Part shown: piece after piece, positions 10,082-48,340 of the stretch | Position numbering within the stretch: the stretch's first letter is position 1 | Layout of the letters: each line of letters starts with the position of its first letter | Source: Pantoea septica | GTDB taxonomy: Bacteria > Pseudomonadota > Gammaproteobacteria > Enterobacterales > Enterobacteriaceae | NCBI RefSeq assembly: GCF_002095575.1 | Contig: NZ_MLJJ01000003.1 | Coordinates: 62,001-126,000, forward strand | Reading direction: 5' to 3' | Length of the DNA stretch: 64,000 nucleotides | Notes under the pieces: model-generated | The model's input: the letters and a program-made list of their open reading frames with translations, nothing else | Databases searched by the model: none | What the model was told of the DNA's origin: nothing | Position numbers and translations under genes: made by a program

Positions 10082-10197
10082 TCACGCCAGGATATTGCTG
10101 AATTTATTTGAAAATTAAGACCAAAACTCTTCACTATATCTGCGCGGGCGTTTAGGCGACACTCAAATGGATTCGGCTGTTTTAAAAGGAACCTAAA

Positions 10198-36106: not shown

Positions 36107-36673
36107 TTACAGCGCAGCACTACGCTGAAGATCTGAACGGGTATCAATATCCAGCAGACATCCCTTATCCGCTAACGTCACCGCCTGACACGGCGCGCTG
36201 TTAAGCACCGCGCGCGCGCCGCTGTCACCGCTCAGACTGGCGAGCGCGGAAAAGAACGCGCGCTGAAATCCCACCGGATGCCCAGGCACGCCTTCGACTT
36301 CCGCCCGAACCAGCGGCGCGCGATGCAGCGCATCCGCCACGGCCAGCAGGCTCTCCACGGTTAAAAACGGCATATCGCCCAGCGTAATCATCCAGCCGTC
36401 GTATTCCGCTGCGGCTTTCACGCCCGCAGCGATAGAGTCGCCGATGCCCGCGCTGCGGCAGATAACCGCACAGCCAGCGGGAATCAGCGCATGAATTGCC
36501 CTGTCTTCCGGCCGCGTCACCACGAAAACGTCAAGCCCTGTGGCGGCAACACGCTCCAGCGTGTGCTGCAAAACCGGCTTGCCGTTCAGCAAGGCGAGCA
36601 GCTTATGCTCCCCGCCGCTCGCTTTAAAGCGGCGGCTGAAGCCGGCCGCCATCACCAGAATGGCGATTCTCAT
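36107..36673 (-). CDS. Molybdenum cofactor cytidylyltransferase-like NTP transferase (MocA/CoxI-like)
   Basis: A 188-residue nucleotidyltransferase. The N-terminal loop VMAAGFSRRF (residues 6-15) and the later LGDMPFL are the NTP- and metal-binding motifs. Relatives attach CMP to molybdopterin to give the MCD cofactor used by xanthine dehydrogenase-family enzymes. The ATG at 36673 overlaps the xdhC-like stop by 4 bases. With XdhC and the molybdenum hydroxylase genes upstream, it completes a maturation set. Confidence 0.85.
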   Translation of the reverse strand: MRIAILVMAAGFSRRFKASGGEHKLLALLNGKPVLQHTLERVAATGLDVFVVTRPEDRAIHALIPAGCAVICRSAGIGDSIAAGVKAAAEYDGWMITLGDMPFLTVESLLAVADALHRAPLVRAEVEGVPGHPVGFQRAFFSALASLSGDSGARAVLNSAPCQAVTLADKGCLLDIDTRSDLQRSAAL

Positions 36674-37686
36674 ATCAAACTGCCCTGCTCCCACGGCTCT
36701 GCCAGGGCCGGCTCAACCGCCTCTACGCAGCCGTTTTTGTAGCGCACGATGTCCGCCATCACCGACAGCGCAATCTCCGACGGCGTTTTACTGCCGATAT
36801 CGAGCCCGACCGGCGCGTGAATGCGATTGATCTGATCCGGCGTGAGATCGCCATACTCTCCCAGCCGCGCTTTTCTTCTCAGGCTGTTCTTTTTCGATCC
36901 CATCGCGCCGATATAGAACGCCGGCAGGTTGACCGCTTCCATCATGGTGAGATCGTCAATGCGCGGATCGTGGGTAAGCGACAGGATTGCTGTCCCGGCA
37001 TGGCAACCTTCCCGCTCCAGATAAACGGCGGGAAACTGCTTAACCAGCCTGACGTTCGCGTCCAGCAGAGCGGCCATATTCTCCAGCGCTTCGTCCCGGT
37101 GTTCGCACACGATGGTTTCGAAGCCGAGCGCGACGGCAAAATTGGCGCAGAACACCGCGACGCTGGAAAGTCCGCCGATAACCAGCCTGGGCGCGGTGGA
37201 GAGCGTCAGGGTAATAGCGGCGCCGTCGCGGTAAGTCAGCGTGCTGTTGGTATAGGCGGCTGGCTCCAGCACATGACAGGGATGCGGCAGAATAATTTTC
37301 TTTTTCACCGCCGTGGCGGCGACCAGCGCATCGTGCATTCTCTGCAAATAGGCGCGACTCTGAGCGCCGGGCGACAGCTTTTCCACCAGAATATCGAGTA
37401 CGCCGCCACACGGCAGCGCCCTGTCCGGCTCAAATCCGCCCTCGCCGTAGCGCACCACCTGGCTGGCGTCCGGGAAGGCGTTGCGATCGATGCGTTCGAT
37501 AAAACTCTCTTCAATGCAGCCGCCTGAAAGCGAACCGCAGTGATGCCCCTCTTTACGGATAATCATCATCGCGCCGGGCGGCCGCGGCGACGATCCGTAG
37601 GTAGAGAGCACCGTACAAAGCCATACTTCATGCGCGTCAACCCACTGCAATCCTGCTTTTAATACCTGCATATCAAGGTTGTGCAT
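36670..37686 (-). CDS. XdhC/CoxI family molybdenum hydroxylase maturation factor
   Basis: A 338-residue protein that, in the family, binds sulfurated Mo cofactor and inserts it into xanthine dehydrogenase-type enzymes. The CxxS-type N-terminal region VLSTYGSSPRPPGAMMIIR and GSLSGGCIEE, plus the C-terminal Rossmann-like part with ILSLTHDPRIDD and YIGAMGSKKNSLRR, are clear. The start at 37686 (MHNLDMQVL) is taken because GGAGG lies upstream; the longer frame looks like leader DNA. It follows an exporter gene by 70 bases. Confidence 0.88.
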   Translation of the reverse strand: MHNLDMQVLKAGLQWVDAHEVWLCTVLSTYGSSPRPPGAMMIIRKEGHHCGSLSGGCIEESFIERIDRNAFPDASQVVRYGEGGFEPDRALPCGGVLDILVEKLSPGAQSRAYLQRMHDALVAATAVKKKIILPHPCHVLEPAAYTNSTLTYRDGAAITLTLSTAPRLVIGGLSSVAVFCANFAVALGFETIVCEHRDEALENMAALLDANVRLVKQFPAVYLEREGCHAGTAILSLTHDPRIDDLTMMEAVNLPAFYIGAMGSKKNSLRRKARLGEYGDLTPDQINRIHAPVGLDIGSKTPSEIALSVMADIVRYKNGCVEAVEPALAEPWEQGSLI

Positions 37687-37756: not shown

Positions 37757-38953
37757 TTAGCGTACGGCATGTCGGTAACGATCGCGGCGGCTCGCCAGCA
37801 CGGCAAAGATCGCCGAAAAGAGCAGCAGCGCCAGGCCAAAGGCGAAGGGACTCCACCAACCCACTGCGTCAAAAAGTTCGCCGCCCAGCGCCGCGCCCAG
37901 GGTGATCGCCAGCTGGATCACGGCGACCATCAGGCCGCCGCCCGCCTCCGCGTTTTCCGGCAGCGCGCGGCTCAGCCATAACCCCCATGCGACCGGCGCA
38001 GGCGTGGAGATCAGGCCCCACGCGGCTAACAGCGCGCCCGTGATCAACAGCGAATGCCCCTGCCAGATCAGCAGCGCCGCCATCGCCGCCATCGCCAGCG
38101 GGATCAGGATTAGCCAGCGAAACAGATGTCGCTGCAGCAGCTGGTCGACCGACCAGGTTCCCACCAGTCCCGCTGCGCCCAACAGCAGCAGAATAAACGA
38201 AAGCTCGCTGACGCTGGCTCCCGTCACCGACTCCATAAACGGGCGCAGATAGGTGAAAATCGCAAACTGCCCCATAAACAGCGTCAGCAGCGCGGCCATG
38301 CCCGCCGCGACGTGCGGCAAGCCAAGCAGGCGCAGCGGGTTCGCGGTGTGGTTATCGCCCTGCGCAGGCAGCGACGGAATCGCCCGCCACTGCCAGATAA
38401 AGGCACCGACGGCCAGCGGCACGACGATAAAAAATGCCCCGCGCCAGCCGATATACTGACCGAGAAAACTGCCCAGCGGCGCGGCGATGGTGGCCGCCAG
38501 CGCGTTGCCACCGTTAATCAGCGCCAGTCCTTTCGCCACGGCATGCGGCGGCGCGAGGCGCATGATGGTCGCCGTCGACATCGACCAGAATCCGCCTATC
38601 GCCACGCCAAGCAGCGCGCGTCCGACAATAAAAACTAGTCCGTCTGGCGCAAATGTGACAGTCAGACCGGAAATTGTCAGTAAAAGCGTAAAGGCGATCA
38701 GCACTTTTTTGCGGTCGAAGCGGCCGGTTAACGGCGTATTGAGCAGGCTGGTCAGCACGGCGAAAAAACCACTGACGGAGATCGCCTGACCCGCCTGCCC
38801 CTGGCTAATGCCCAGATCCTGCGCCACCGGCGTCAGCAGACTGACGGGCATAAATTCCGAGGCGATCAGCACCACGACGCCGAGCGCCATAGAGAAGATA
38901 GCGCCCCACGCGGCGTGGGAACGCGAGGCAGAGTGCGTTGTAATAGTCGTCAT
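37757..38953 (-). CDS. MFS exporter, NepI-like (DHA1 family)
   Basis: A 398-residue, 12-helix exporter. Its opening (VLIASEFMPVSLLTPVAQDLGIS) and FWSMSTATIMRLAPPHAV resemble E. coli NepI, the purine ribonucleoside efflux pump. GRFDRKKVL is the MFS loop 2-3 motif. An 18-bp LysR-type operator lies 83 bases upstream of its start and is identical to one in front of the hydroxylase operon, so the exporter probably handles a substrate or product of that enzyme. A purine link is plausible but unproven. Confidence 0.84.
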   Translation of the reverse strand: MTTITTHSASRSHAAWGAIFSMALGVVVLIASEFMPVSLLTPVAQDLGISQGQAGQAISVSGFFAVLTSLLNTPLTGRFDRKKVLIAFTLLLTISGLTVTFAPDGLVFIVGRALLGVAIGGFWSMSTATIMRLAPPHAVAKGLALINGGNALAATIAAPLGSFLGQYIGWRGAFFIVVPLAVGAFIWQWRAIPSLPAQGDNHTANPLRLLGLPHVAAGMAALLTLFMGQFAIFTYLRPFMESVTGASVSELSFILLLLGAAGLVGTWSVDQLLQRHLFRWLILIPLAMAAMAALLIWQGHSLLITGALLAAWGLISTPAPVAWGLWLSRALPENAEAGGGLMVAVIQLAITLGAALGGELFDAVGWWSPFAFGLALLLFSAIFAVLASRRDRYRHAVR

Positions 38954-39035
38954 ACGTTAATCCATGAGTTTCAATGCCGTAAGATGCTACCCAAACTGTC
39001 AGCCTGAATTAACCTGGATAAACTGTATGTAATTG

Positions 39036-39053
39036 TGAATAAAATTCATTAAT
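39036..39053. promoter_or_regulatory. LysR-type operator of the exporter gene
   Basis: TGAATAAAATTCATTAAT contains the T-N11-A palindrome TGAAT-AAA-ATTCA. The identical 18 bases occur at 43238-43255. It lies 83 bases before the exporter start. Confidence 0.65.
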
Positions 39054-39055
39054 AG

Positions 39056-39094
39056 CCGAGGAGCGTCCTTGTGAAGCCAAATGGCGCTCCTCGG
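39056..39094. terminator. Long hairpin after the cytochrome c gene
   Basis: Perfect 10-bp arms CCGAGGAGCG and CGCTCCTCGG with a 19-base loop, between the cytochrome stop and the exporter operator. No clear T run, so termination may be partial or the hairpin may protect the message end. Confidence 0.5.
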
Positions 39095-39100
39095 TAAGGC

Positions 39101-40435
39101 CTAACGCATCTGCAAAATAATGGGGTTACTGCTGGCGGGATCGGTATGCCGCCGCATTTCCGCTACCGTTTTCGCCTCTGTCTGCGCGCCGCTGTTGCCC
39201 CAGGAGGAGCGAATATAGTTGAGCACCTCCGCCGTCTCTCGATCGGAAAGCTGTTTGCGGTATGGCGGCATACGATAGGCGTCCGGCACGCCACCGGCAA
39301 CCACACGGGCGGAGCCGTTCAGCACGATATTGATCGCTGAAGAGGCATCGACCTGCATCGAGGTGGCGCCTGCCAGCGGCGGGATCCACGGCGCCTGTCC
39401 GCGTCCGTCGGCACCATGGCAGCTGCTGCAGCGCGCGATAAAGGTCTGCTCGCCGGGATGGCGCGCGCCCTGTTCGCTTCTCGTCGCGTAATGCCAGGCG
39501 GTGCCGTTATCGTTGCTGCCCGGCGGCAGCGACTTCAGGTAGTGCGCGATGGCGCGCAGATCGTCGTCGCGCATAAACTGGGTGGAGTTGTTGAACGCAT
39601 CCGTCATCGAGCCGAACACCACGGCGTGGGCGTTGCGTCCGGTTTTCAGAAACGTTACCACCTCCTCTTCGCTCCAGCGGCTTATCCCAGTGCTGGCGTC
39701 GCCGCGCAGGCTGGGCGCATACCAGCCGTCAAGCAGCGCGCCCGCCAGGTAGTCCGGGCTGCGCGCATCCAGCGCTTTTTCGTTAAAGGCCAGGCCGCGC
39801 GGCGTATGGCAACTGCCGCAGTGGCCGGGGCCCTCCACCAGGTAGGCGCCGCGGTTCCAGAGCGCGTCGCGGTTCGCCACCGTCTGCCAGGGCTGGCCGC
39901 TGGCGAAAGCGGCGCGCCACAGCGCCAGTGGCCAGCGCATATTGAGCGGCCAGGGGATCTCTGACGGCTGATTTTTCCGCGAGGCGGGCTGCACGCCGTG
40001 CATTATAAAAGCATAGAGCGCGCGGATATCCTCATCGCTCAGCTTCTGATAAGAGGGAAACGGCATTGCCGGATAGAGCCGATGTCCGTCCTGCGCTATG
40101 CCCTGACGCACCGCGCGATCGAAGTCAGCCAGCGAATAGCGGCCAATACCGCTCTCCCGGTCGGGCGTAATATTGGTGGTATAGATTTTCCCGACCGGCG
40201 TCGCCATCGCCAGACCGCCGGAAAACGGCGCATTCTCTGGCGTGCTGTGACAGGCGACGCAGTCGCTCAGACGCGCGACATATTCGCCACGCTGGATAAG
40301 CTCGGGCTGCGCAGCGGCCCCGGCGTTTGCTTCATTGTCAAAAGGCGACGCGGGCGTGCGCAGCATCCACAGCAGCGCACCCGCCACGATGATGAGCGCT
40401 GCAATCAGCAGCAGGCAAAGCCTTTTCCTGGTCAT
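39101..40435 (-). CDS. Triheme cytochrome c subunit of a molybdenum hydroxylase
   Basis: A 444-residue cytochrome c anchored by an N-terminal helix (residues 5-24). Three heme motifs are present: CVACH at 59-63, CGSCH in GHCGSCHTPRG near residue 205 and CSSCH in RCSSCHGADGRG near residue 345. The layout matches the electron-accepting subunit of acetic-acid-bacterium dehydrogenases and of IorAB-type aldehyde or N-heterocycle oxidoreductases. It would carry electrons from the Mo subunit, encoded 25 bases upstream, to the quinone pool or a terminal oxidase. Confidence 0.92.
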   Translation of the reverse strand: MTRKRLCLLLIAALIIVAGALLWMLRTPASPFDNEANAGAAAQPELIQRGEYVARLSDCVACHSTPENAPFSGGLAMATPVGKIYTTNITPDRESGIGRYSLADFDRAVRQGIAQDGHRLYPAMPFPSYQKLSDEDIRALYAFIMHGVQPASRKNQPSEIPWPLNMRWPLALWRAAFASGQPWQTVANRDALWNRGAYLVEGPGHCGSCHTPRGLAFNEKALDARSPDYLAGALLDGWYAPSLRGDASTGISRWSEEEVVTFLKTGRNAHAVVFGSMTDAFNNSTQFMRDDDLRAIAHYLKSLPPGSNDNGTAWHYATRSEQGARHPGEQTFIARCSSCHGADGRGQAPWIPPLAGATSMQVDASSAINIVLNGSARVVAGGVPDAYRMPPYRKQLSDRETAEVLNYIRSSWGNSGAQTEAKTVAEMRRHTDPASSNPIILQMR

Positions 40436-40460
40436 GATGTTTTCCTTAAGAACCTGCAGC

Positions 40461-42695
40461 TCAGGTAAAGTTGTAGCGTGAAAGCGGCATAGAGCGGATT
40501 CGCTGACCGGTCAGCCGATAGACCGCATTCGCCACCGCTGGCGGCACAGCGGGCAGCGGCGGTTCGCCGATGCCACCCATTTTGGCGCCGCTCTCGATAA
40601 TGCGCACCTCGACCTGCGCCATGCGCGACGGCGGCAGGATTGGATAGAGATCGAAGTTACGCGCTACCGGCTGCCCCTTCTCAAACTGTGCCTCTTCCAG
40701 CAGTACCTGCGACAGTCCCAGCGCGACCGCACCGTTGACCTGCGCCTCGACGATAGCCGGATTAACGATGCTGCCGGGATCGATTGCCTCCCAGATGCGA
40801 TGCACCCTGACCTGCCCGTTCTCAATCGAGACTTCCGCTATCGCCGCCGCCTCGGTGCCGAACGGCGACGCCATCGCCACGCCGCGGGCGCGCCGACTGC
40901 CATCTTCGGCGGTATAGGGGCCCGGATTCCAGCCGCCGGAGAGATCGGCCACCGCGTGCAGCAGCGTCGTCAGGCGTGCATTGCCCTTCAGCAGCCGCAA
41001 ACGTAGCTCAAAGGGATCCAGCTTGCCGTGGTCCGCCATCTCGTCGAGAAAGCACTCGTAGAGGAAGTCGTTCATCGAGTTGCCGACCGAGCGCCAGTAG
41101 CCCAGCTTCACCGGCCCTTTTTTATAGATCTGCGCAATGCGCACATGGGGAATGTTATAGGACTTGCCGGTTAATCCTTCGGTGGCGGTGGGATCGAGCT
41201 TATCGCCCTGCTTGCCGGAGATGCCTTCGGTCGGGCCTTCGCAGATGCTGACCGCTTCCAGCGCCAGCGGATAGCCCTCGTCATCCAGCCCGGCGCGAAA
41301 GCGCACCGCCGCCATTGGGCGATGGGTGTCGCGCAGAAACTCCTCTTCGCGGCTCCAGATCAGCTTAACCGGACGGCCGACCGCCTTCGCCAGCTCAACC
41401 GCCTGCGGCCAGGCCATCGCCCCGTCATAAACAAAGTGACGCCCGAAAAAGCCGCCCAGTAACGGTGAGTGAATCAGGATCTTGCTGGCGTCGAGCCCGG
41501 TGCGCTTCGCCACCTCGCCCTGAAACATTTCAGGTGCCTGGTTAGGGATCCAGAGTTCCAGCGTGCCGTCAGCGTTAAAGCGCGCCAGCGCCGAAGGCGG
41601 CTCCAGCTGAGCATGGTTAAGATACTGGCTGTGGTAGGTGGCGCTGAGGGTGGTTTTAGCGGCCGACATGCCGGCGGTCAGGTCGCCTTTGACCTCCGCC
41701 TCCTGGCCGTCGCCCGGTTCGTTCGCCAGACTGCGGGCGAAATCGTCGGAGGAGAAATTCGCCGGCATTAGCCCGGCGTCGGAAGGCGCCAGCCATTCTA
41801 CCTGGATCGCTTCAACCGCGCGTTTCGCCTGCCACCAACGCTCTGCGACCACTGCCACCGCGTCCGGCAGCCGGTGCACCGAGTGCACGCCCTTCATTGC
41901 CCTGACCTGCGCCTCGTTGCGCAATGCGCCCGGCGTCATACCAAAACGCGGCGCGTGCTGCACCGCCGCATGCAGCATATCGTCGACGCGGCAGTCGATG
42001 GTGTAAACGGCCTGCCCGGTTGATTTTTCCCATGCGTCGAGGCGCTTGACGGGCTTGCCGATCCAGCGAAACTGTGCGGGATCTTTCAGGCTGACTGCGT
42101 CAGCAGGCGGAACCGGCAGATCGCGCGCGCGACTGGCCAGCTCGCCGTAGGTCAGCGTCTGCCCTGAAGCGTCGTGTACTATCCTCCCCGGCTCGGTGCG
42201 CAGCGAGGCGAGCGGCACCGCCAGCGCGGTGGCCGCCGCCTGCAGCAGCATATGACGCGCCAGCGCGCCGAGACGGCGCATAGTGGTGTAGCTGGTACGC
42301 ACCGACTGACTGCCGCCGGTGATGCGCATGCCGCTTTCCATAACTTTATACTCGTCGCCGGCCGGCGCGTTCTCTACGACAAAGGTGGCGGGATCGGCAT
42401 CCAGCTCTTCGCCGACGATCTGCGCCATGGCAGTAAAGATCCCCTGTCCGCCTTCGATAAACGGCGACAGAAAGCGCACGCTGCTGTCTGGACGGATTTC
42501 AAGAAAGGCGGGGACGCGCGTGCCGGGCGGCAGGGGCTGCTGCGCCGCCTGAGCGCGCGCCTGGCCTACAGGCAGGCCGATGCCCAGCACCAGCGCCCCT
42601 GCTACGCTGCCCGACGCCAGCAAAAAGCGGCGGCGCGACAGGTTGGCGGGCTCTTCGCCGAGGGAAAATTCCGATAACGCGGGCTGTTCTCTCAC
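40461..42695 (-). CDS. Molybdopterin-binding subunit, isoquinoline 1-oxidoreductase beta type (IorB-like)
   Basis: A 744-residue xanthine-dehydrogenase-family Mo subunit. The twin-arginine signal SRRRFLLASGS begins near residue 20, so the complex is probably exported folded to the periplasm. The cofactor-contact motifs GGFFGRHF and GTEAAAIAEV and the catalytic Glu in GGIGEPPLPAV near residue 715 are present. Relatives oxidise isoquinoline, nicotinate or aldehydes; the substrate here is not known. It overlaps the 2Fe-2S subunit gene by 4 bases. Confidence 0.9.
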   Translation of the reverse strand: MREQPALSEFSLGEEPANLSRRRFLLASGSVAGALVLGIGLPVGQARAQAAQQPLPPGTRVPAFLEIRPDSSVRFLSPFIEGGQGIFTAMAQIVGEELDADPATFVVENAPAGDEYKVMESGMRITGGSQSVRTSYTTMRRLGALARHMLLQAAATALAVPLASLRTEPGRIVHDASGQTLTYGELASRARDLPVPPADAVSLKDPAQFRWIGKPVKRLDAWEKSTGQAVYTIDCRVDDMLHAAVQHAPRFGMTPGALRNEAQVRAMKGVHSVHRLPDAVAVVAERWWQAKRAVEAIQVEWLAPSDAGLMPANFSSDDFARSLANEPGDGQEAEVKGDLTAGMSAAKTTLSATYHSQYLNHAQLEPPSALARFNADGTLELWIPNQAPEMFQGEVAKRTGLDASKILIHSPLLGGFFGRHFVYDGAMAWPQAVELAKAVGRPVKLIWSREEEFLRDTHRPMAAVRFRAGLDDEGYPLALEAVSICEGPTEGISGKQGDKLDPTATEGLTGKSYNIPHVRIAQIYKKGPVKLGYWRSVGNSMNDFLYECFLDEMADHGKLDPFELRLRLLKGNARLTTLLHAVADLSGGWNPGPYTAEDGSRRARGVAMASPFGTEAAAIAEVSIENGQVRVHRIWEAIDPGSIVNPAIVEAQVNGAVALGLSQVLLEEAQFEKGQPVARNFDLYPILPPSRMAQVEVRIIESGAKMGGIGEPPLPAVPPAVANAVYRLTGQRIRSMPLSRYNFT

Positions 42696-43150
42696 TGGTC
42701 GCCTCCCTGACCCGCCACCTCGTGGATGGCTGCGCTAATGGCGTTATAGGTACCACAGCGGCAAAGATTCACCATCGCCGCCGCGATCTCCTGGTCTGAG
42801 GGATGGGCGTTCTGCTTGAGCAGCGCGGTCGCCGCCATCACCTGCCCCGACTGGCAGTAGCCACACTGCGGCACCTGATGCTTCACCCAGGCCGCCACGA
42901 CGCGCTTGCCCATATCGTCGCTCTCGATCGCTTCAATGGTGGTAATCTGCTTTCCGGCGACCTTATCGACTGGCGTCACGCAGGATCGCACCACCTGTCC
43001 GTCGATCATGACCGAACAGGCGCCGCACTGCGCCAGACCGCAGCCATATTTCGTTCCCGTCATGCCCAGATCGTCGCGTATTACCCAGAGTAACGGCGTG
43101 TCCCCTTCGGCATCGACCTGAACGGTTTTATTATTTATCTGAATGTCCAT
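42692..43150 (-). CDS. (2Fe-2S)-binding subunit, isoquinoline 1-oxidoreductase alpha type (IorA-like)
   Basis: A 152-residue protein with both iron-sulfur clusters of the family: a plant-type ferredoxin site at Cys37, Cys42, Cys45 and Cys57, and a second site at Cys96, Cys99, Cys130 and Cys132. It passes electrons from the Mo subunit to the cytochrome c subunit. First gene of a three-gene operon; an 18-bp LysR-type operator lies 88 bases upstream. It has no export signal and probably travels with the Tat-signal Mo subunit. Confidence 0.93.
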   Translation of the reverse strand: MDIQINNKTVQVDAEGDTPLLWVIRDDLGMTGTKYGCGLAQCGACSVMIDGQVVRSCVTPVDKVAGKQITTIEAIESDDMGKRVVAAWVKHQVPQCGYCQSGQVMAATALLKQNAHPSDQEIAAAMVNLCRCGTYNAISAAIHEVAGQGGDQ

Positions 43151-43237
43151 AGTGCTCCGGTCTTCATGGCGTTTGCTTTCGCCCTATCCTTACAGAGAAG
43201 AGTGGAATGATTAACCGGCCCTCGCCGCATATGCTGC

Positions 43238-43255
43238 TGAATAAAATTCATTAAT
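43238..43255. promoter_or_regulatory. LysR-type operator of the hydroxylase operon
   Basis: TGAATAAAATTCATTAAT, identical to 39036-39053, containing a T-N11-A palindrome, in the divergent region between the 2Fe-2S subunit gene and a lysR gene. Confidence 0.68.
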
Positions 43256-43403
43256 TAGCAAAACGCCCGCACCGCGCCCTTTATCAGCGCATTGTGGATT
43301 TTAATGATCCGTGCGATTAGCGAAATGCCGTTGGATTCCCTGTCCTGAATAGGCTAATTTTCCGATCGCTGTGAATTAAAATCATAAATAAGGACGGGAT
43401 AAG

Positions 43404-44282
43404 ATGAACGACATTCAGGCATTTATTGCTGTGGCGCGCGAGCAGAGCTTTACCAAAGCAGCGGCTGGCCTGGGTGTGAGTCCGTCTGCGCTCAGTCATA
43501 CCATTCGCAATCTGGAAGAGCGCATCGGCGTGCGCCTGCTGGCGCGCACCACGCGCAACGTCGCGCCGACCGAAGCGGGCGAACGCCTACTGCAGTCCGT
43601 GGCGCCCCTGTTCGAACAGATCAACAGCGAAATTGCGCGCATTGGCGAATTACGCAATACCCCGGCCGGCAATATACGCATCACCTGTTCCGACGACGCC
43701 GCCGAGATCCTGTTGCGCCCTGCGCTGCCCGCTTTTTTTGCCAGCTATCCCGATATTAGCGTGGAAATCTGCATCGACTACGGCTTTACCAATATCGTCA
43801 CTGAACGTTTCGATGCCGGCATTCGGCTGGGGGAATCGATCAGCCGCGATATGATTGCGGTGCGCCTCGGACCCGACTGGCGGCTGGCAGTGGTTGGTAC
43901 GCCCGCCTACTTTCAGGCGCATCCGGTTCCGGTGGTTCCACAGGATCTCACGGCGCACCGCTGTATTAATATCCGTCACTCGCCGGGCGGCAGCGTCTAC
44001 GCGTGGGAGTTTGAAAAAGCGGGCCGCAAGTTAACGATTCGGGTAAACGGTCCGCTGCTGTCCAACAGTATTATTCACGTGCTGAACGGCGCGCTGGACG
44101 GTATTGGCCTGGCCTGTGTGCCGGAGCATATGGCGCGTCCCCATATCGAGGCGGGCCGCCTGATTGAAGTGCTCGCCGACTGGAGCCCGCTGTTCGAAGG
44201 CTATCACCTTTACTATCCCAACCGACGCAACACCTCGTCCGCCTTCGCCGCTTTTGTCGAGGCAATCCGATATCGCGGCTAG
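43404..44282 (+). CDS. LysR-type regulator, divergent to the molybdenum hydroxylase operon
   Basis: A 292-residue LysR protein. The winged helix-turn-helix at residues 1-60 (QSFTKAAAGLGVSPSALSHTIRNLEERIG) is followed by an effector domain with VEICIDYGFTNIVTERFDAGIRLGE. By position it is the likely regulator of the divergent 2Fe-2S/Mo/cytochrome operon. The identical T-N11-A box in front of the exporter gene suggests that it also controls that gene. Confidence 0.92.
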   Translation: MNDIQAFIAVAREQSFTKAAAGLGVSPSALSHTIRNLEERIGVRLLARTTRNVAPTEAGERLLQSVAPLFEQINSEIARIGELRNTPAGNIRITCSDDAAEILLRPALPAFFASYPDISVEICIDYGFTNIVTERFDAGIRLGESISRDMIAVRLGPDWRLAVVGTPAYFQAHPVPVVPQDLTAHRCINIRHSPGGSVYAWEFEKAGRKLTIRVNGPLLSNSIIHVLNGALDGIGLACVPEHMARPHIEAGRLIEVLADWSPLFEGYHLYYPNRRNTSSAFAAFVEAIRYRG

Positions 44283-44291
44283 CACCGCGCG

Positions 44292-45188
44292 TCAGGAGTC
44301 GAGCTGCGCCTGTATCCACTGTAAAAAGTAACTGACGCGCGGGAACTGCGCATAGCCGCGCGGATACACCAGGTGATGGGCGCTGACCGGCAGACTCATG
44401 GCGTCGTCAAATACCCTGATCAGTTTGCCGCTGCGAAGATAGTCGGCGGCCAGCAGTTCGCTTTCGAAGATCAGCCCGTGGCCGAGCATCGCCGCCTCCA
44501 GGCTCATATAGGATCGGTCGAAGCGAAACAGCCACTCCTGGGTCGGCTGCGGCAATTGCTGCGTGGCGAACCACTGCGGCCACTGAATTAACGGCGATTC
44601 AGAAAGGATCAGCGCGTGATTATTTAATTCGTCCGGCGTGCGCAGCGGATATTTATCCAGATAGTCGGGTGATGCCAGCACCGACATTTTTTCATGACGA
44701 ATCGTCTTTATTTCAAATGCCTTCCATTCCGGAAATCCATGGCGCACCGCAATATCAATATTATCGCGACTGAAGGATAAGTTCTCATAGGAGCAGGAGA
44801 GCGAAACCTGTATGTCCGGGTGCGCTTCGCGAAACTGATGAATACGCGGCAGCAGCCATAACAGCCCAAAACTGGGCGCGCAGTGAATGCGCAGCGCGCT
44901 GCGATCTTTCTCATTGCGCAGCCGCGCCGTCGCCTGCGTCAGGCTGAGGATCAGCGGCCGAATCTCCGCTAAATAGCGCTCGCCCGCCAGAGTTAACGCT
45001 ACCCCTTTCGCCGATCGGTGAAACAGAATCGAGCCCAGCTCTTTTTCCAGTTTCGCCAGCTGGTGGCTCGCTGCCGAGGGGGTGATATTTAATTTTTCCG
45101 CCGCGCGCGCCACGTTTCCTGATTGCGCCACTTCTTCAAAGACGCGCAGCGATTTTAATGAAGGAAGCTGGCTGACTGGCTTTTCCAT
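44292..45188 (-). CDS. LysR-type regulator (GcvA-like), divergent to the split transketolase operon
   Basis: A 298-residue LysR protein with N-terminal helix-turn-helix QSGNVARAAEKLNITPSAASHQLAKLEKEL and an effector domain of the GcvA subfamily (WLLPRIHQFREAHPDIQVSLSCS, DIAVRHG). It is transcribed away from the SDR-MFS-transketolase genes, the usual position for their activator. It converges with the previous lysR gene, whose stop is 9 bases away. Confidence 0.92.
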   Translation of the reverse strand: MEKPVSQLPSLKSLRVFEEVAQSGNVARAAEKLNITPSAASHQLAKLEKELGSILFHRSAKGVALTLAGERYLAEIRPLILSLTQATARLRNEKDRSALRIHCAPSFGLLWLLPRIHQFREAHPDIQVSLSCSYENLSFSRDNIDIAVRHGFPEWKAFEIKTIRHEKMSVLASPDYLDKYPLRTPDELNNHALILSESPLIQWPQWFATQQLPQPTQEWLFRFDRSYMSLEAAMLGHGLIFESELLAADYLRSGKLIRVFDDAMSLPVSAHHLVYPRGYAQFPRVSYFLQWIQAQLDS

Positions 45189-45265
45189 AACTATTCCCGC
45201 TCACAATTCTGTGATTTATGTCCGTTTCAAACATTGAAAAATGTTAACTACATCAAACCAACAAT

Positions 45266-45285
45266 TTCATTCAGCATCAAATGAA
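45266..45285. promoter_or_regulatory. Candidate LysR binding site
   Basis: TTCATT and AATGAA form an inverted repeat with an 8-base spacer in the 196-base region between the divergent lysR and SDR genes. Confidence 0.35.
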
Positions 45286-45384
45286 TTTTTTTGCATTGCC
45301 ACTTTGCGCGCTATTTCTGATGCTGAGGATGAACCCTGCCGGTAGTGATACCGAACCCTATAAAAAAAGAATCTGGAGTCAGTT

Positions 45385-46134
45385 ATGTTGCTGAAAGAGA
45401 AAGTTGCGATTATCACGGGCGCCGCGTCTCAGCGCGGTATCGGACGCGCTACGGCCGCCTGCTTCGCTCACCACGGCGCCCGCGTGGTGGTGCTCGATCT
45501 TGATGAAACGGCAGCGCAGCGCACCGCGCTGGAGCTGGGATCGGGCCATCTGGGCCTTGCGGCCAACGTCACCGACGCCGAGGCGATTCAGCGCGCCGTT
45601 GCTGAGGTCCTGAAGGAGTATGGCCGCATCGACGTGCTGGTGAATAACGCCGGCATTACGCAGCCGGTGAAAACGCTGGAGATCGGCCTCGAAGACTACA
45701 ACCGCATTCTGGATGTCAACCTGCGCGGCACGCTGTTGATGTCGCAGGCGGTCATCCCCACGATGCAGCGTCAGGGCGGCGGCAGCATCGTCTGCCTCTC
45801 GTCGGTATCGGCGCAGCGCGGCGGCGGCATTTTCGGCGGTCCGCACTACAGCGCCGCGAAGGCGGGCGTCCTGGGCCTGACCAAAGCGATGGCGCGCGAG
45901 TTCGGGCCGGATCAGATCCGCGTCAACGCCCTGACGCCAGGCCTGATCCAGACCGATATCACCGGCGGACTGCTGCACGACGAGCGCCGTCACGCCATTA
46001 TCGATTCGATTCCGCTCGGACGTCTCGGCGCGGCTGACGACGTGGCGCACGCCGCGCTGTTTCTCGCCAGCGATCTCTCCAGCTACCTCACCGGCGTCAC
46101 CTTAGACGTAAACGGCGGCATGCTGATCCACTGA
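45385..46134 (+). CDS. Short-chain dehydrogenase/reductase
   Basis: A 249-residue classical SDR. The cofactor loop TGAASQRGIGRA is at residues 10-21, with Asp in VVVLDLD suggesting NAD preference; NNAG and the catalytic Ser/YSAAK (residue ~155) are in place. RBS CTGGAG upstream. First gene of an operon with an MFS importer and a split transketolase, so it probably oxidises or reduces a sugar, polyol or sugar acid taken up by that carrier. Confidence 0.88.
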   Translation: MLLKEKVAIITGAASQRGIGRATAACFAHHGARVVVLDLDETAAQRTALELGSGHLGLAANVTDAEAIQRAVAEVLKEYGRIDVLVNNAGITQPVKTLEIGLEDYNRILDVNLRGTLLMSQAVIPTMQRQGGGSIVCLSSVSAQRGGGIFGGPHYSAAKAGVLGLTKAMAREFGPDQIRVNALTPGLIQTDITGGLLHDERRHAIIDSIPLGRLGAADDVAHAALFLASDLSSYLTGVTLDVNGGMLIH

Positions 46135-46149
46135 TCGTCCCCCTTTTCT

Positions 46150-46168
46150 CCAGCAGCCAGGCTGCTGG
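46150..46168 (+). other. Intercistronic hairpin between SDR and MFS genes
   Basis: Perfect 7-bp arms CCAGCAG and CTGCTGG around CCAGG. No T run; may stabilise or partly attenuate the message. Confidence 0.4.
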
Positions 46169-46189
46169 TTCACTCCCGGAGTGATAACC

Positions 46190-47488
46190 ATGACAACGCT
46201 GAATATCGGTGCGGCAGTCGCTGCGCGCGACGGCGCCTATCGCAAAATCGCCTGGCGCCTGATGCCGTTCTTAATGTTGTGTTACCTCTGCGCCTATCTG
46301 GATCGCGTCAACGTCGGCTTCGCTAAGCTGCAGATGATGGACGATCTCTCGCTGAGCGAAACGGTCTACGGCCTCGGCGCCGGGATCTTTTTTCTCGGTT
46401 ACTTTTTCTTTGAGGTGCCCAGCAACCTGATCCTGCATCGCGTCGGCGCGCGCCGCTGGATCGCCCGCATTATGATCACCTGGGGCCTGATCTCCGGCGC
46501 CTTCGCCTTTGTCGAAACCGCGTGGCAGTTCTATCTGCTGCGCTTCCTGCTTGGCGTTGCCGAAGCCGGACTGGCGCCCGGACTGCTGCTCTATCTCACC
46601 TACTGGTTTCCCGCCCATCGTCGGGCGCGCATGACGGTGCTCTGGTTCGTCGCCATTCCGCTCTCCGGTATGATCGGTGGGCCGCTATCCGGCTGGATTA
46701 TGGAAACCTTCGCCGGATCGCACGGCTGGGCCGGCTGGCAGTGGATGTTCATGCTGGAGGCGATCCCGACCATTCTAATGGGGTTTGTGGTGCTGGTGGT
46801 GCTGAAAGATCGCGTCGAACAGGCGAGCTGGCTCGATGAAGGCGAAAAGCGCATGGTGCGCGCCGATCTGGATGAGGACAACCAGCAAAAGTCGCATCAC
46901 GGCACTATTAAAGAGTTTGTGGCGGACAAACGCCTCTGGACGCTGGCGGCGATCTACTTTTGCGTGGTGATGGGTCAGTACGCCCTGACCTTCTGGCTGC
47001 CGACGCTGGTAAGAAATGCCGGCATCCGCGAGCCGCTGCATATCGGATTGCTCACCAGTCTGCCCTATCTGTGCGCCATCGTGTTTATGCTGATGGCGGG
47101 CCGCAGCGGCGATCGTCATCGCGAGCGGCGCTGGCACCTTATCGTGCCGATGGTGCTCGGCATGGTAGGCCTGACGATAGCGACCCTGCTGGGCCACAGC
47201 GTCACGCTGTCCCTGTTCTTTCTCTGCCTCGCGGCGGCGGGCATTCTTTCCGCCTCGTCGCTGTTCTGGATGCTGCCGACCAATCTGCTGGGCGGCGTCT
47301 CCGCCGCCGCGGGCATCGCGGCGGTGAACTGCATCGCCAATCTCGCCGGCTTTTTTTCGCCCTGGCTTATCGGCTCGATTACCACGCTGACCGGCTCGCC
47401 CGCGTCGGGCATGTACTTTATCGCTGCGGTTCTGCTGCTCGGCGCGCTCTGCGTGCTGCGTATTCGGGCAGCGGACGTTAATCGTTAA
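46190..47488 (+). CDS. MFS transporter, ACS family
   Basis: A 432-residue, 12-helix carrier. The family opening (RLMPFLMLCYLCAYLDRVNVGFAKL) and the loop RVGARRWIARIMI are typical of tartrate/phthalate/hexuronate-type symporters. The ATG at 46190 has CGGAGTG upstream; GTG at 46181 is the alternative. Placed between the SDR and the transketolase subunits, it probably imports the compound that the operon degrades. Confidence 0.88.
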   Translation: MTTLNIGAAVAARDGAYRKIAWRLMPFLMLCYLCAYLDRVNVGFAKLQMMDDLSLSETVYGLGAGIFFLGYFFFEVPSNLILHRVGARRWIARIMITWGLISGAFAFVETAWQFYLLRFLLGVAEAGLAPGLLLYLTYWFPAHRRARMTVLWFVAIPLSGMIGGPLSGWIMETFAGSHGWAGWQWMFMLEAIPTILMGFVVLVVLKDRVEQASWLDEGEKRMVRADLDEDNQQKSHHGTIKEFVADKRLWTLAAIYFCVVMGQYALTFWLPTLVRNAGIREPLHIGLLTSLPYLCAIVFMLMAGRSGDRHRERRWHLIVPMVLGMVGLTIATLLGHSVTLSLFFLCLAAAGILSASSLFWMLPTNLLGGVSAAAGIAAVNCIANLAGFFSPWLIGSITTLTGSPASGMYFIAAVLLLGALCVLRIRAADVNR

Positions 47489-47500
47489 TCAGGAGGTTCT

Positions 47501-48340
47501 ATGCATACCCTTACTTCGTCGGCGCCGCTGACCCTACGGCAGCGCGCCGCGCGCATTCGTCGCCATGCGCTGCTGATGGGCCAGGTTCAGGGCCAGGGCT
47601 ATATCGGCCAGGCGCTGGGCGCCGCCGATCTGCTCGCCGTGAGCTATTTCCACGCGCTGAACTATCGCGCCGAGGATCCCGAATGGGAAGGCCGCGATCG
47701 CTTCTACCTCTCGATCGGCCACTACGCTATCGCCCTCTATGCGGCGCTGCTGGAGGCGGGCGTCATTCCCGAAGCGGAACGCGAAACCTACGGCAGCGAC
47801 GAGAGTCGGCTGCCGATGTCGGGCATGGCGGCCTACACGCCCGGTATGGAGATCACCGGCGGCTCGCTCGGTCACGGTCTGGGCATTGCGGTTGGCGCCT
47901 GCCTGGGGCTGAAGCGTAAGGGCTCAACCTCGCGGGTCTATAACCTGCTTTCCGACGGTGAACTGAATGAGGGCTCGACCTGGGAGGCCGCCATGTCGGC
48001 GTCGCACTGGCGGCTCGATAATCTGATCGCGATTATCGACGTCAATAACCAGCAGGCGGACGGCCACAGCAGCGAGATTCTGGCGTTTGAGCCCATCGTC
48101 GAACGCTGGCAGGCGTTCGGCTGGTATGCGCAGCGGGTGGACGGCAACGACATCGATGCGCTGGTCGCCGCCTTTGACGCCGCGCGCGACTGGCCGCAAG
48201 CGCAGCCGCGCGTAATTATTTGCGATACCCGAATGGGCAAAGGCGTGCCTTTCCTGGAAACCCGGGAGAAAACCCACTTTATCCGCGTCGACGCCGATGA
48301 GTGGGATAAAGCCCTTACTGCGCTGGAACAGGGAGAATAA
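47501..48340 (+). CDS. Transketolase, N-terminal (thiamine diphosphate-binding) subunit
   Basis: A 279-residue half transketolase. The ThDP-binding motif GDG-to-NN type stretch appears as SDGELNEGSTWEAAMSASHWRLDNLIAIIDVNNQQADG, and TGGSLGHGLGIAVGACLG is the substrate-side loop. It needs the separate C-terminal subunit encoded 1 base downstream. Split transketolases of this kind often serve special sugar pathways (for example apulose phosphate) rather than the pentose phosphate pathway. Confidence 0.92.
   Translation: MHTLTSSAPLTLRQRAARIRRHALLMGQVQGQGYIGQALGAADLLAVSYFHALNYRAEDPEWEGRDRFYLSIGHYAIALYAALLEAGVIPEAERETYGSDESRLPMSGMAAYTPGMEITGGSLGHGLGIAVGACLGLKRKGSTSRVYNLLSDGELNEGSTWEAAMSASHWRLDNLIAIIDVNNQQADGHSSEILAFEPIVERWQAFGWYAQRVDGNDIDALVAAFDAARDWPQAQPRVIICDTRMGKGVPFLETREKTHFIRVDADEWDKALTALEQGE

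Follow-up and report, generated by a model that had tools for sequence, protein, structure and literature searches.

A predicted LysR operator occurring three times in a Pantoea septica gene cluster probably joins an exporter and a molybdenum dehydrogenase in one small regulon

Within a 64,000-nucleotide stretch of the Pantoea septica genome (contig NZ_MLJJ01000003.1, positions 62,001 to 126,000; hereafter the window), a lysR gene lies beside the genes of a molybdenum (Mo) hydroxylase system, and the question raised by this locus is whether a short palindrome repeated in the cluster places the hydroxylase and a putative exporter of the major facilitator superfamily (MFS) under the same regulator. 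On the minus strand the order is 2Fe-2S subunit, Mo subunit, cytochrome c, site, MFS exporter, XdhC and MocA. A preliminary description of this DNA had reported an identical 18-mer in front of two units, and its positions proved exact: TGAATAAAATTCATTAAT occurs at 39036-39053 and 43238-43255, 83 bp upstream of the exporter start codon (38953) and 88 bp upstream of that of the 2Fe-2S gene (43150), both genes being on the minus strand. Each copy contains a perfect T-N11-A dyad, TGAAT-N3-ATTCA, found nowhere else in the window, and lysR is divergent from the 2Fe-2S gene as described. When up to three mismatches were allowed, the window gave three matches, compared with a mean of 0.00 in 100 shuffles. 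The third match, absent from the preliminary description, is at 43372-43389, 14 bp before the lysR start, with 3 mismatches to the 18-mer and a score of 27.8 bits with our first matrix; the presence of a site at lysR itself suggests autoregulation. From the sites, their conservation, the gene families and their co-occurrence, all read from sequence, we conclude that the window probably holds a small LysR regulon in which, through three predicted operators, one aldehyde-like compound would be exported and oxidized in the periplasm.

The protein encoded at 43404-44282 is LysR-type by its HTH_1 and LysR substrate-binding domains; its nearest NCBIfam LysR name, YafC, reached 147.2 bits against a curated cut-off of 470. 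We took the best 80 of 120 LysR relatives as loci (loci and genomes are cited by our own L and G numbers), the closest of these belonging to Pantoea latae and P. piersonii. TGA-N7-TCA is found shortly before lysR in 19 out of the 19 loci L004-L022, with the consensus CTTGTGA-N7-TCAgcAAT, and the operator is also present at lysR orthologs of other genera. The form kept at the orthologs, TGA-N7-TCA-N2-AAT usually preceded by TTG, is fitted by all three window copies, and a T-N11-A dyad near both regulator and target is kept across orthologs. A stricter matrix was built from 13 loci (12 different sites) in genomes without a hydroxylase match. With it a site of at least 19 bits was detected within ~100 bp 5' of lysR in 30 of the 32 loci scanned, a count in which 13 of the 30 are the training loci and L204/L021 and L207/L014 look like repeats of the same genomes; no site of at least 19 bits was found before lysR in L023 and L024. 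L008 and L247, which encode identical LysR proteins, are not independent. In L011-L022, which include Enterobacteriaceae, Erwinia, Cedecea, Pseudomonas, Photorhabdus and Pantoea haifensis, the exporter gene is the divergent neighbor of lysR, and the locus yielded no hydroxylase gene.

Consistent with regulation of both target units, the site is also conserved in front of them. The gap before the exporter contains a site of 24.4-29.0 bits in all five full clusters (the window, L004, L005, L006 and L010), a score reached by 0 of 1000 shuffles in each case. Upstream of the 2Fe-2S gene, where the scoring excluded the last 60 bp before lysR and so kept lysR-proximal sites out, a site of 17.4-25.6 bits is present in 9/9 linked clusters, window included (0-3 of 1000 shuffles). 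The full core TGA-N7-TCA-N2-AAT is kept in 28/28 lysR rows, 10/10 2Fe-2S rows and 6/7 exporter rows, all picked for having the operator, with L023, L024 and a P. agglomerans hydroxylase-type relic outside these counts. Where the cluster has no exporter (L008, L245, L246 and L247), xdhC comes after the cytochrome c gene with 21-76 bp between match ends; in the window, therefore, the exporter lies within this gene order and has an operator of its own.

Further support for a shared regulon is provided by the distribution of the genes and by natural relocations and losses. Among 147 genomes of relatives, 15 have the 2Fe-2S gene, 14 have this LysR and 11 have both (Fisher p 4e-11, uncorrected for kinship). 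A site is present in 10 of 11 clusters with this LysR and in 1 of 7 counted as without it at cut-offs of 14-16 bits (p 0.0025); the p values for LysR status are a guide only because the sequences are related, and one of the seven, G222, has a 60% relative of the regulator 9 kb away. In G026 the hydroxylase is ~600 kb from the lysR-exporter pair with no LysR match within the 16 kb around it, and a 23.1-bit site is found 183 bp before the 2Fe-2S gene (0/1000 shuffles); the next gene upstream, encoding a CGNR-type protein by eye, is co-directional. G172 belongs to the same genus; its genome, 91% complete, contains the hydroxylase, and neither this LysR (at 1e-90) nor the exporter (at 1e-110) gave a match there; the matching distance (185 vs 183 bp) is occupied by a degraded sequence of 12.8 bits only (8/1000 shuffles). 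The converse loss is seen in P. agglomerans (L007), which groups with the full-cluster species P. brenneri in the LysR tree (99/96) and has no hydroxylase match in its genome at 1e-100. Here the lysR and exporter sites are retained, and the hydroxylase-type site is broken, its right arm changed from TCA to TCT with the spacer kept. The preliminary description had joined the exporter, xdhC and mocA genes to the hydroxylase as one regulon; this proposal is strengthened by the comparison, since the conserved site accompanies lysR and both units and tends to be kept or lost together with them.

The arrangement around the sites also resembles that of known LysR promoters. According to the available text of PMC4834489, a primary T-N11-A site near -65 overlaps the regulator's own promoter, a secondary site lies towards -35, and the target is activated while the regulator is negatively autoregulated. 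As in the regulators described there, the window has a T-N11-A site by the regulator gene, a candidate second site towards the presumably activated promoter, and a divergent gene order; unlike the layout given in that text, the cluster has three copies of the predicted site, one for each transcription unit. TTA at -27, which belongs to the candidate second site, is present in 7/7 exporter-proximal, 16/28 lysR-proximal and 7/10 2Fe-2S-proximal sites. TAA at -17 is present in 6/7 exporter-proximal and 24/28 lysR-proximal sites, and is outside the four commonest positions in the 2Fe-2S-proximal ones. If the layout in the available part of PMC4834489 applied, the exporter and 2Fe-2S transcripts would start ~24-29 bp before their start codons. 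A scan for sigma-70 consensus promoters found none on the minus strand at either site (shuffle means 0.4 and 0.7) and one on the plus strand ~270 bp before lysR.

Several observations weigh against a single LysR regulon of this kind. The absence of a sigma-70 consensus fits an activated promoter, and proves nothing. The distance between operator and 2Fe-2S gene is 87 bp in the window's clade and 170-193 bp in most others, so leaders must differ and no single promoter layout can apply to every cluster. In L009 the exporter-proximal site, the one exception among seven, has no TCA arm. Cedecea G198 is a clear counterexample, having the lysR-exporter pair with its operator and a distant hydroxylase that has no site (8.7 bits, 559/1000 shuffles). 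G333, one of the seven clusters counted as lacking this LysR, has a site of 20.5 bits (0/1000 shuffles). The association between site and regulator weakens at stricter cut-offs, to 9/11 vs 1/7 at 18 bits (p 0.013) and 8/11 vs 1/7 at 20 bits (p 0.05), and 9 of the 11 LysR-bearing clusters form one clade. The lysR-proximal window site scores just 19.4 bits with the stricter matrix. Finally, when 30 of 35 loose matches in the P. septica genome were rescored, two other places outscored the 2Fe-2S site: a sequence preceding a YceI-like gene (window 10094) at 24.2 bits and one within a phage-like region at 23.9 bits, both named by eye.

Table 1. Genes and predicted regulatory sites of the cluster, in window coordinates
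Feature	Position	Strand	Basis or remark
MocA-like molybdenum-cofactor nucleotidyltransferase	36107..36694	-	Pfam NTP_transf_3
XdhC-like maturation factor	36670..37686	-	Pfam XdhC_CoxI + XdhC_C; ATG at 37686
MFS exporter, NepI-like	37757..38953	-	Pfam MFS_1; NF007578 312.4 bits vs cut-off 584
Candidate second (activation) LysR site, ATTA-N7-TAAA	39008..39022	-	centre 27 bp from operator centre, between operator and exporter; presumed role
Predicted operator, exporter-xdhC-mocA	39032..39053	-	18-mer 39036-39053; dyad TGAATAAAATTCA at 39036-39048; 28.3 bits, 0/1000 shuffles (matrix from hydroxylase-less loci)
Cytochrome c subunit	39101..40435	-	Pfam Cytochrom_C; three CxxCH motifs in translation
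Molybdopterin subunit	40461..42695	-	Pfam MoCoBD_1/2; SRRRFL twin-arginine motif by eye
[2Fe-2S] subunit	42692..43150	-	Pfam Fer2 + Fer2_2
Remaining half (ATTA) of second site, 2Fe-2S side	43210..43213	-	TTA at -27
Predicted operator, 2Fe-2S/Mo/cytochrome c unit	43234..43255	-	18-mer 43238-43255; 23.2 bits, 0/1000 shuffles
Third predicted operator, candidate autoregulatory site	43368..43389	+	14 bp before lysR start codon; 18-mer 43372-43389
LysR-family regulator, presumed operator owner	43404..44282	+	Pfam HTH_1 + LysR_substrate

In the mechanism that we infer, which extends to binding, activation, autoregulation, inducer, substrate, electron path and transport direction, the regulator at 43404-44282 would sense a compound, most likely an aldehyde or related reactive carbonyl. 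It would then activate both the dehydrogenase operon (2Fe-2S, Mo and cytochrome c) and the exporter-xdhC-mocA operon, and use the site in its 5' leader to restrain its own expression. Twin-arginine translocation (TAT) would carry the dehydrogenase to the periplasm, where it would oxidize its substrate and its own cytochrome c would relay the electrons to the respiratory chain, while the exporter would remove the compound or its product from the cytosol and XdhC and MocA would mature the Mo cofactor. If true, placing an inner-membrane exporter and a periplasmic oxidase under the control of a single sensor would offer a simple way to clear reactive compounds. The analysis gives the LysR-exporter pair of Enterobacterales and Pseudomonas genomes an exact and testable regulon and limits the likely inducers to aldehyde-like compounds, and the relocations and losses in G026, G172 and P. 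agglomerans are ready-made natural controls. This kind of system is familiar; we found no description of this particular regulon in the literature searched, and its novelty rests on those searches alone.

The best-surviving alternative accepts that the operators bind this LysR and holds that the operons merely share an inducer, the exporter having nothing to do with the substrate or product of the enzyme. That the exporter handles either of these is a guess on our part. Consistent with separate roles, the exporter occurs in L007 and L009, whose genomes gave no hydroxylase match, the hydroxylase occurs in L008, L246 and L247 with the exporter missing from the locus, and throughout the outgroup L011-L022 lysR is paired with the exporter with no hydroxylase found there. 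Against separate roles, G222 (L248:5753-11121) has a different MFS gene (46% identical; Pfam MFS_1) directly upstream of the 2Fe-2S gene and co-directional with it, beside a different LysR (51%). This link is only suggestive, because MFS paralogs of 40-46% identity occur in 10/10 genomes examined. We consider a merely shared inducer rather doubtful, and continue to favor one regulon acting on one compound.

Sites in other genera raise a related idea, in which LysR and the exporter form a portable detoxification core to which different bacteria attach carbonyl- or ester-processing enzymes of different kinds, TAT-exported in some cases and each with its own operator copy. A toxic compound would be pumped into the periplasm and disarmed there, by a Mo dehydrogenase in Pantoea, with an aldehyde-reductase-like gene added in G052 and a TAT-signal alpha/beta hydrolase in Franconibacter. 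In G052 a 29-bp operator (L209:3963-3991), GCATAYGCTGCTGAATAAAATTCANTAAT, near-identical to the Pantoea 2Fe-2S promoter site, is found before a gene that adjoins lysR and is aldehyde-reductase-like, its closest NCBIfam model being aldehyde reductase Ahr (309 bits vs a cut-off of 470). With up to 3 mismatches this 29-bp sequence occurs in 3 of 392 family genomes, namely G052 and, in each case at the 2Fe-2S promoter, P. septica (the window copy) and P. piersonii. In Franconibacter the gene for the TAT-signal alpha/beta hydrolase, which lies downstream of lysR, is preceded by an operator-like site of 25.7 bits (L012:9946). One further site of at least 19 bits is present in the same 505,921 bases, before an unrelated LysR (L021:17780, 22.5 bits), and since a comparable site precedes an unrelated regulator, the two putative targets are leads, not proof. 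We put the portable core forward tentatively, as possible rather than probable.

What the enzyme oxidizes bears on the nature of the inducer. The preliminary description had listed N-heterocycles, purines and aldehydes as candidate compounds for reporter fusions. The best solved relative of the Mo subunit is 8gy3_C, the large subunit of an aldehyde dehydrogenase (E 1e-62), and the cytochrome c subunit matches both 8gy2_B, an alcohol dehydrogenase cytochrome subunit (E 7e-118), and 8gy3_A, the cytochrome subunit of the aldehyde dehydrogenase (E 1e-59). Two subunits match PDB 8gy3 by sequence; the window cytochrome is closer to the cytochrome subunits of alcohol and glucose dehydrogenases than to that of 8gy3. 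The Mo subunit carries SRRRFL, which we take to be a twin-arginine motif; it was assigned by eye, and no TAT_signal domain was among the Pfam matches. Xanthine dehydrogenase models fell far below their NCBIfam cut-offs (NF043082, 156.4 vs 780 bits; TIGR03196, 140.4 vs 783.65). The accompanying MocA-like protein scored 100.8 bits against the TIGR03310 cut-off of 186.45 and has the Pfam NTP_transf_3 domain.

By gene content the enzyme can be labeled IorAB-like and cytochrome-linked, as 2Fe-2S, Mo and multiheme cytochrome c genes form one unit and the Mo subunit has the motif. In the available text of PMC6365646, such clusters are named after isoquinoline 1-oxidoreductase, and the three-gene form, with an RRRFLA TAT motif, is represented by the vanillin dehydrogenase PP_3621-PP_3623 of P. 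putida and the deoxyribose dehydrogenase PS417_10890-10880 of P. simiae; the role of this form does not seem conserved (PMC6365646). The P. putida complex has also been proposed, in the part of PMC7188995 available, as one candidate glyceraldehyde oxidase. The window enzyme is like these Pseudomonas systems, as far as that text describes them, in its 2Fe-2S subunit, its Mo subunit with an RRRFL TAT motif, its cytochrome c and the need for a Mo-cofactor transferase (PMC6365646), and unlike them in its link to an MFS exporter and this LysR; the word LysR occurs 0 times in the main text of PMC6365646.

A hydroxylase of N-heterocycles or purines, accompanied by a NepI-like pump exporting purines, would suit the resemblance of the gene set to IorAB-like clusters (as presented in the available text of PMC6365646) and the best NCBIfam name of the pump. 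The preliminary name NepI-like holds in so far as this purine ribonucleoside efflux pump is indeed the best NCBIfam match, yet the score is well under the curated cut-off (312.4 vs 584 bits) and purine export should therefore not be assumed. Together with the missed xanthine dehydrogenase cut-offs, the aldehyde dehydrogenase as best solved relative, and the ties of the cytochrome-linked three-gene form to vanillin and deoxyribose use (available text of PMC6365646), this makes a heterocycle or purine hydroxylase unlikely. Since the enzyme resembles TAT-exported, cytochrome-linked vanillin and deoxyribose dehydrogenases, an aldehyde is the likelier substrate, and of the options listed earlier aldehydes are favored while N-heterocycles and purines lose ground. 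The enzyme thus appears to fit a TAT-exported, cytochrome-linked aldehyde (or lactol) dehydrogenase better than a hydroxylase of N-heterocycles or purines, and periplasmic oxidation of an aldehyde or lactol is our best guess at its predicted reaction.

The sites might instead belong to another T-N11-A regulator, for example the second LysR encoded at 44292-45188, given that operators of this family resemble each other and that the second gene adjoins the first. Within the best 80 loci, however, a neighboring ortholog of the second LysR is found in L004 and L005 only, which argues against it as the natural owner, whereas the operator precedes the first lysR in every locus from L004 to L022; we regard this alternative as very improbable. 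The idea that the 18-mer arose by recent duplication or is a mobile repeat, with no regulatory role, was rejected as having next to no likelihood, for although two identical 18-bp copies lie 4.2 kb apart, their flanks differ, the genome has only two exact copies and the same pair of sites differs by 5 bases in P. latae, 1 in P. piersonii, 4 in P. brenneri and 4 in P. rwandensis. The identity noted in the preliminary description is thus real in the window but is not conserved among relatives, and exact 18-bp identity is, judging by these sequences, incidental.

A genome-wide search for the 18-mer, proposed in the preliminary description, returned the two exact copies in 4.31 Mb and not many unrelated promoters. 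With up to 2 mismatches one further copy (C14) appeared, overlapping the start of a gene that is ispA-like by eye; at 12.7 bits and in this position it was set aside as an operator. The search for a wider regulon in this genome was made with a loose IUPAC pattern, with matrix rescoring limited to the matches mentioned above, and no wider regulon stands out because the pattern matched 35 times, compared with 25 for the reversed control.

A few minor observations concern the same genes and sites. The operator-like sequence at window 10094-10115 (24-25 bits) lies between peptidase-like and YceI-like genes, named by eye, and its left arm has no TGA. In the relocated cluster of G026 a transposase-like gene, IS3 type by eye, follows directly after the hydroxylase operon (L200:10833-11630) and is a possible trace of the relocation. 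The exporter of Candidatus Pantoea haifensis (L013, G008) is in two pieces with a stop, and the lysR operator is retained. In G235 the lysR ortholog (L245:9398-10267) has one in-frame stop, possibly a sequencing error or the sign of a recent loss, and the two operators have scores of 21-30 bits. A plasmid search found relatives of the Mo subunit in 119 plasmid records, mostly rhizobial. Beyond the cluster (44292-48340), the second LysR is GcvA-like and divergent from a short-chain dehydrogenase/reductase (SDR) gene, after which come an MFS permease gene and a gene that is transketolase-like by eye; close orthologs of the second LysR, the SDR gene and the permease are found beside lysR in L004 and L005 only, among the best 80 loci.

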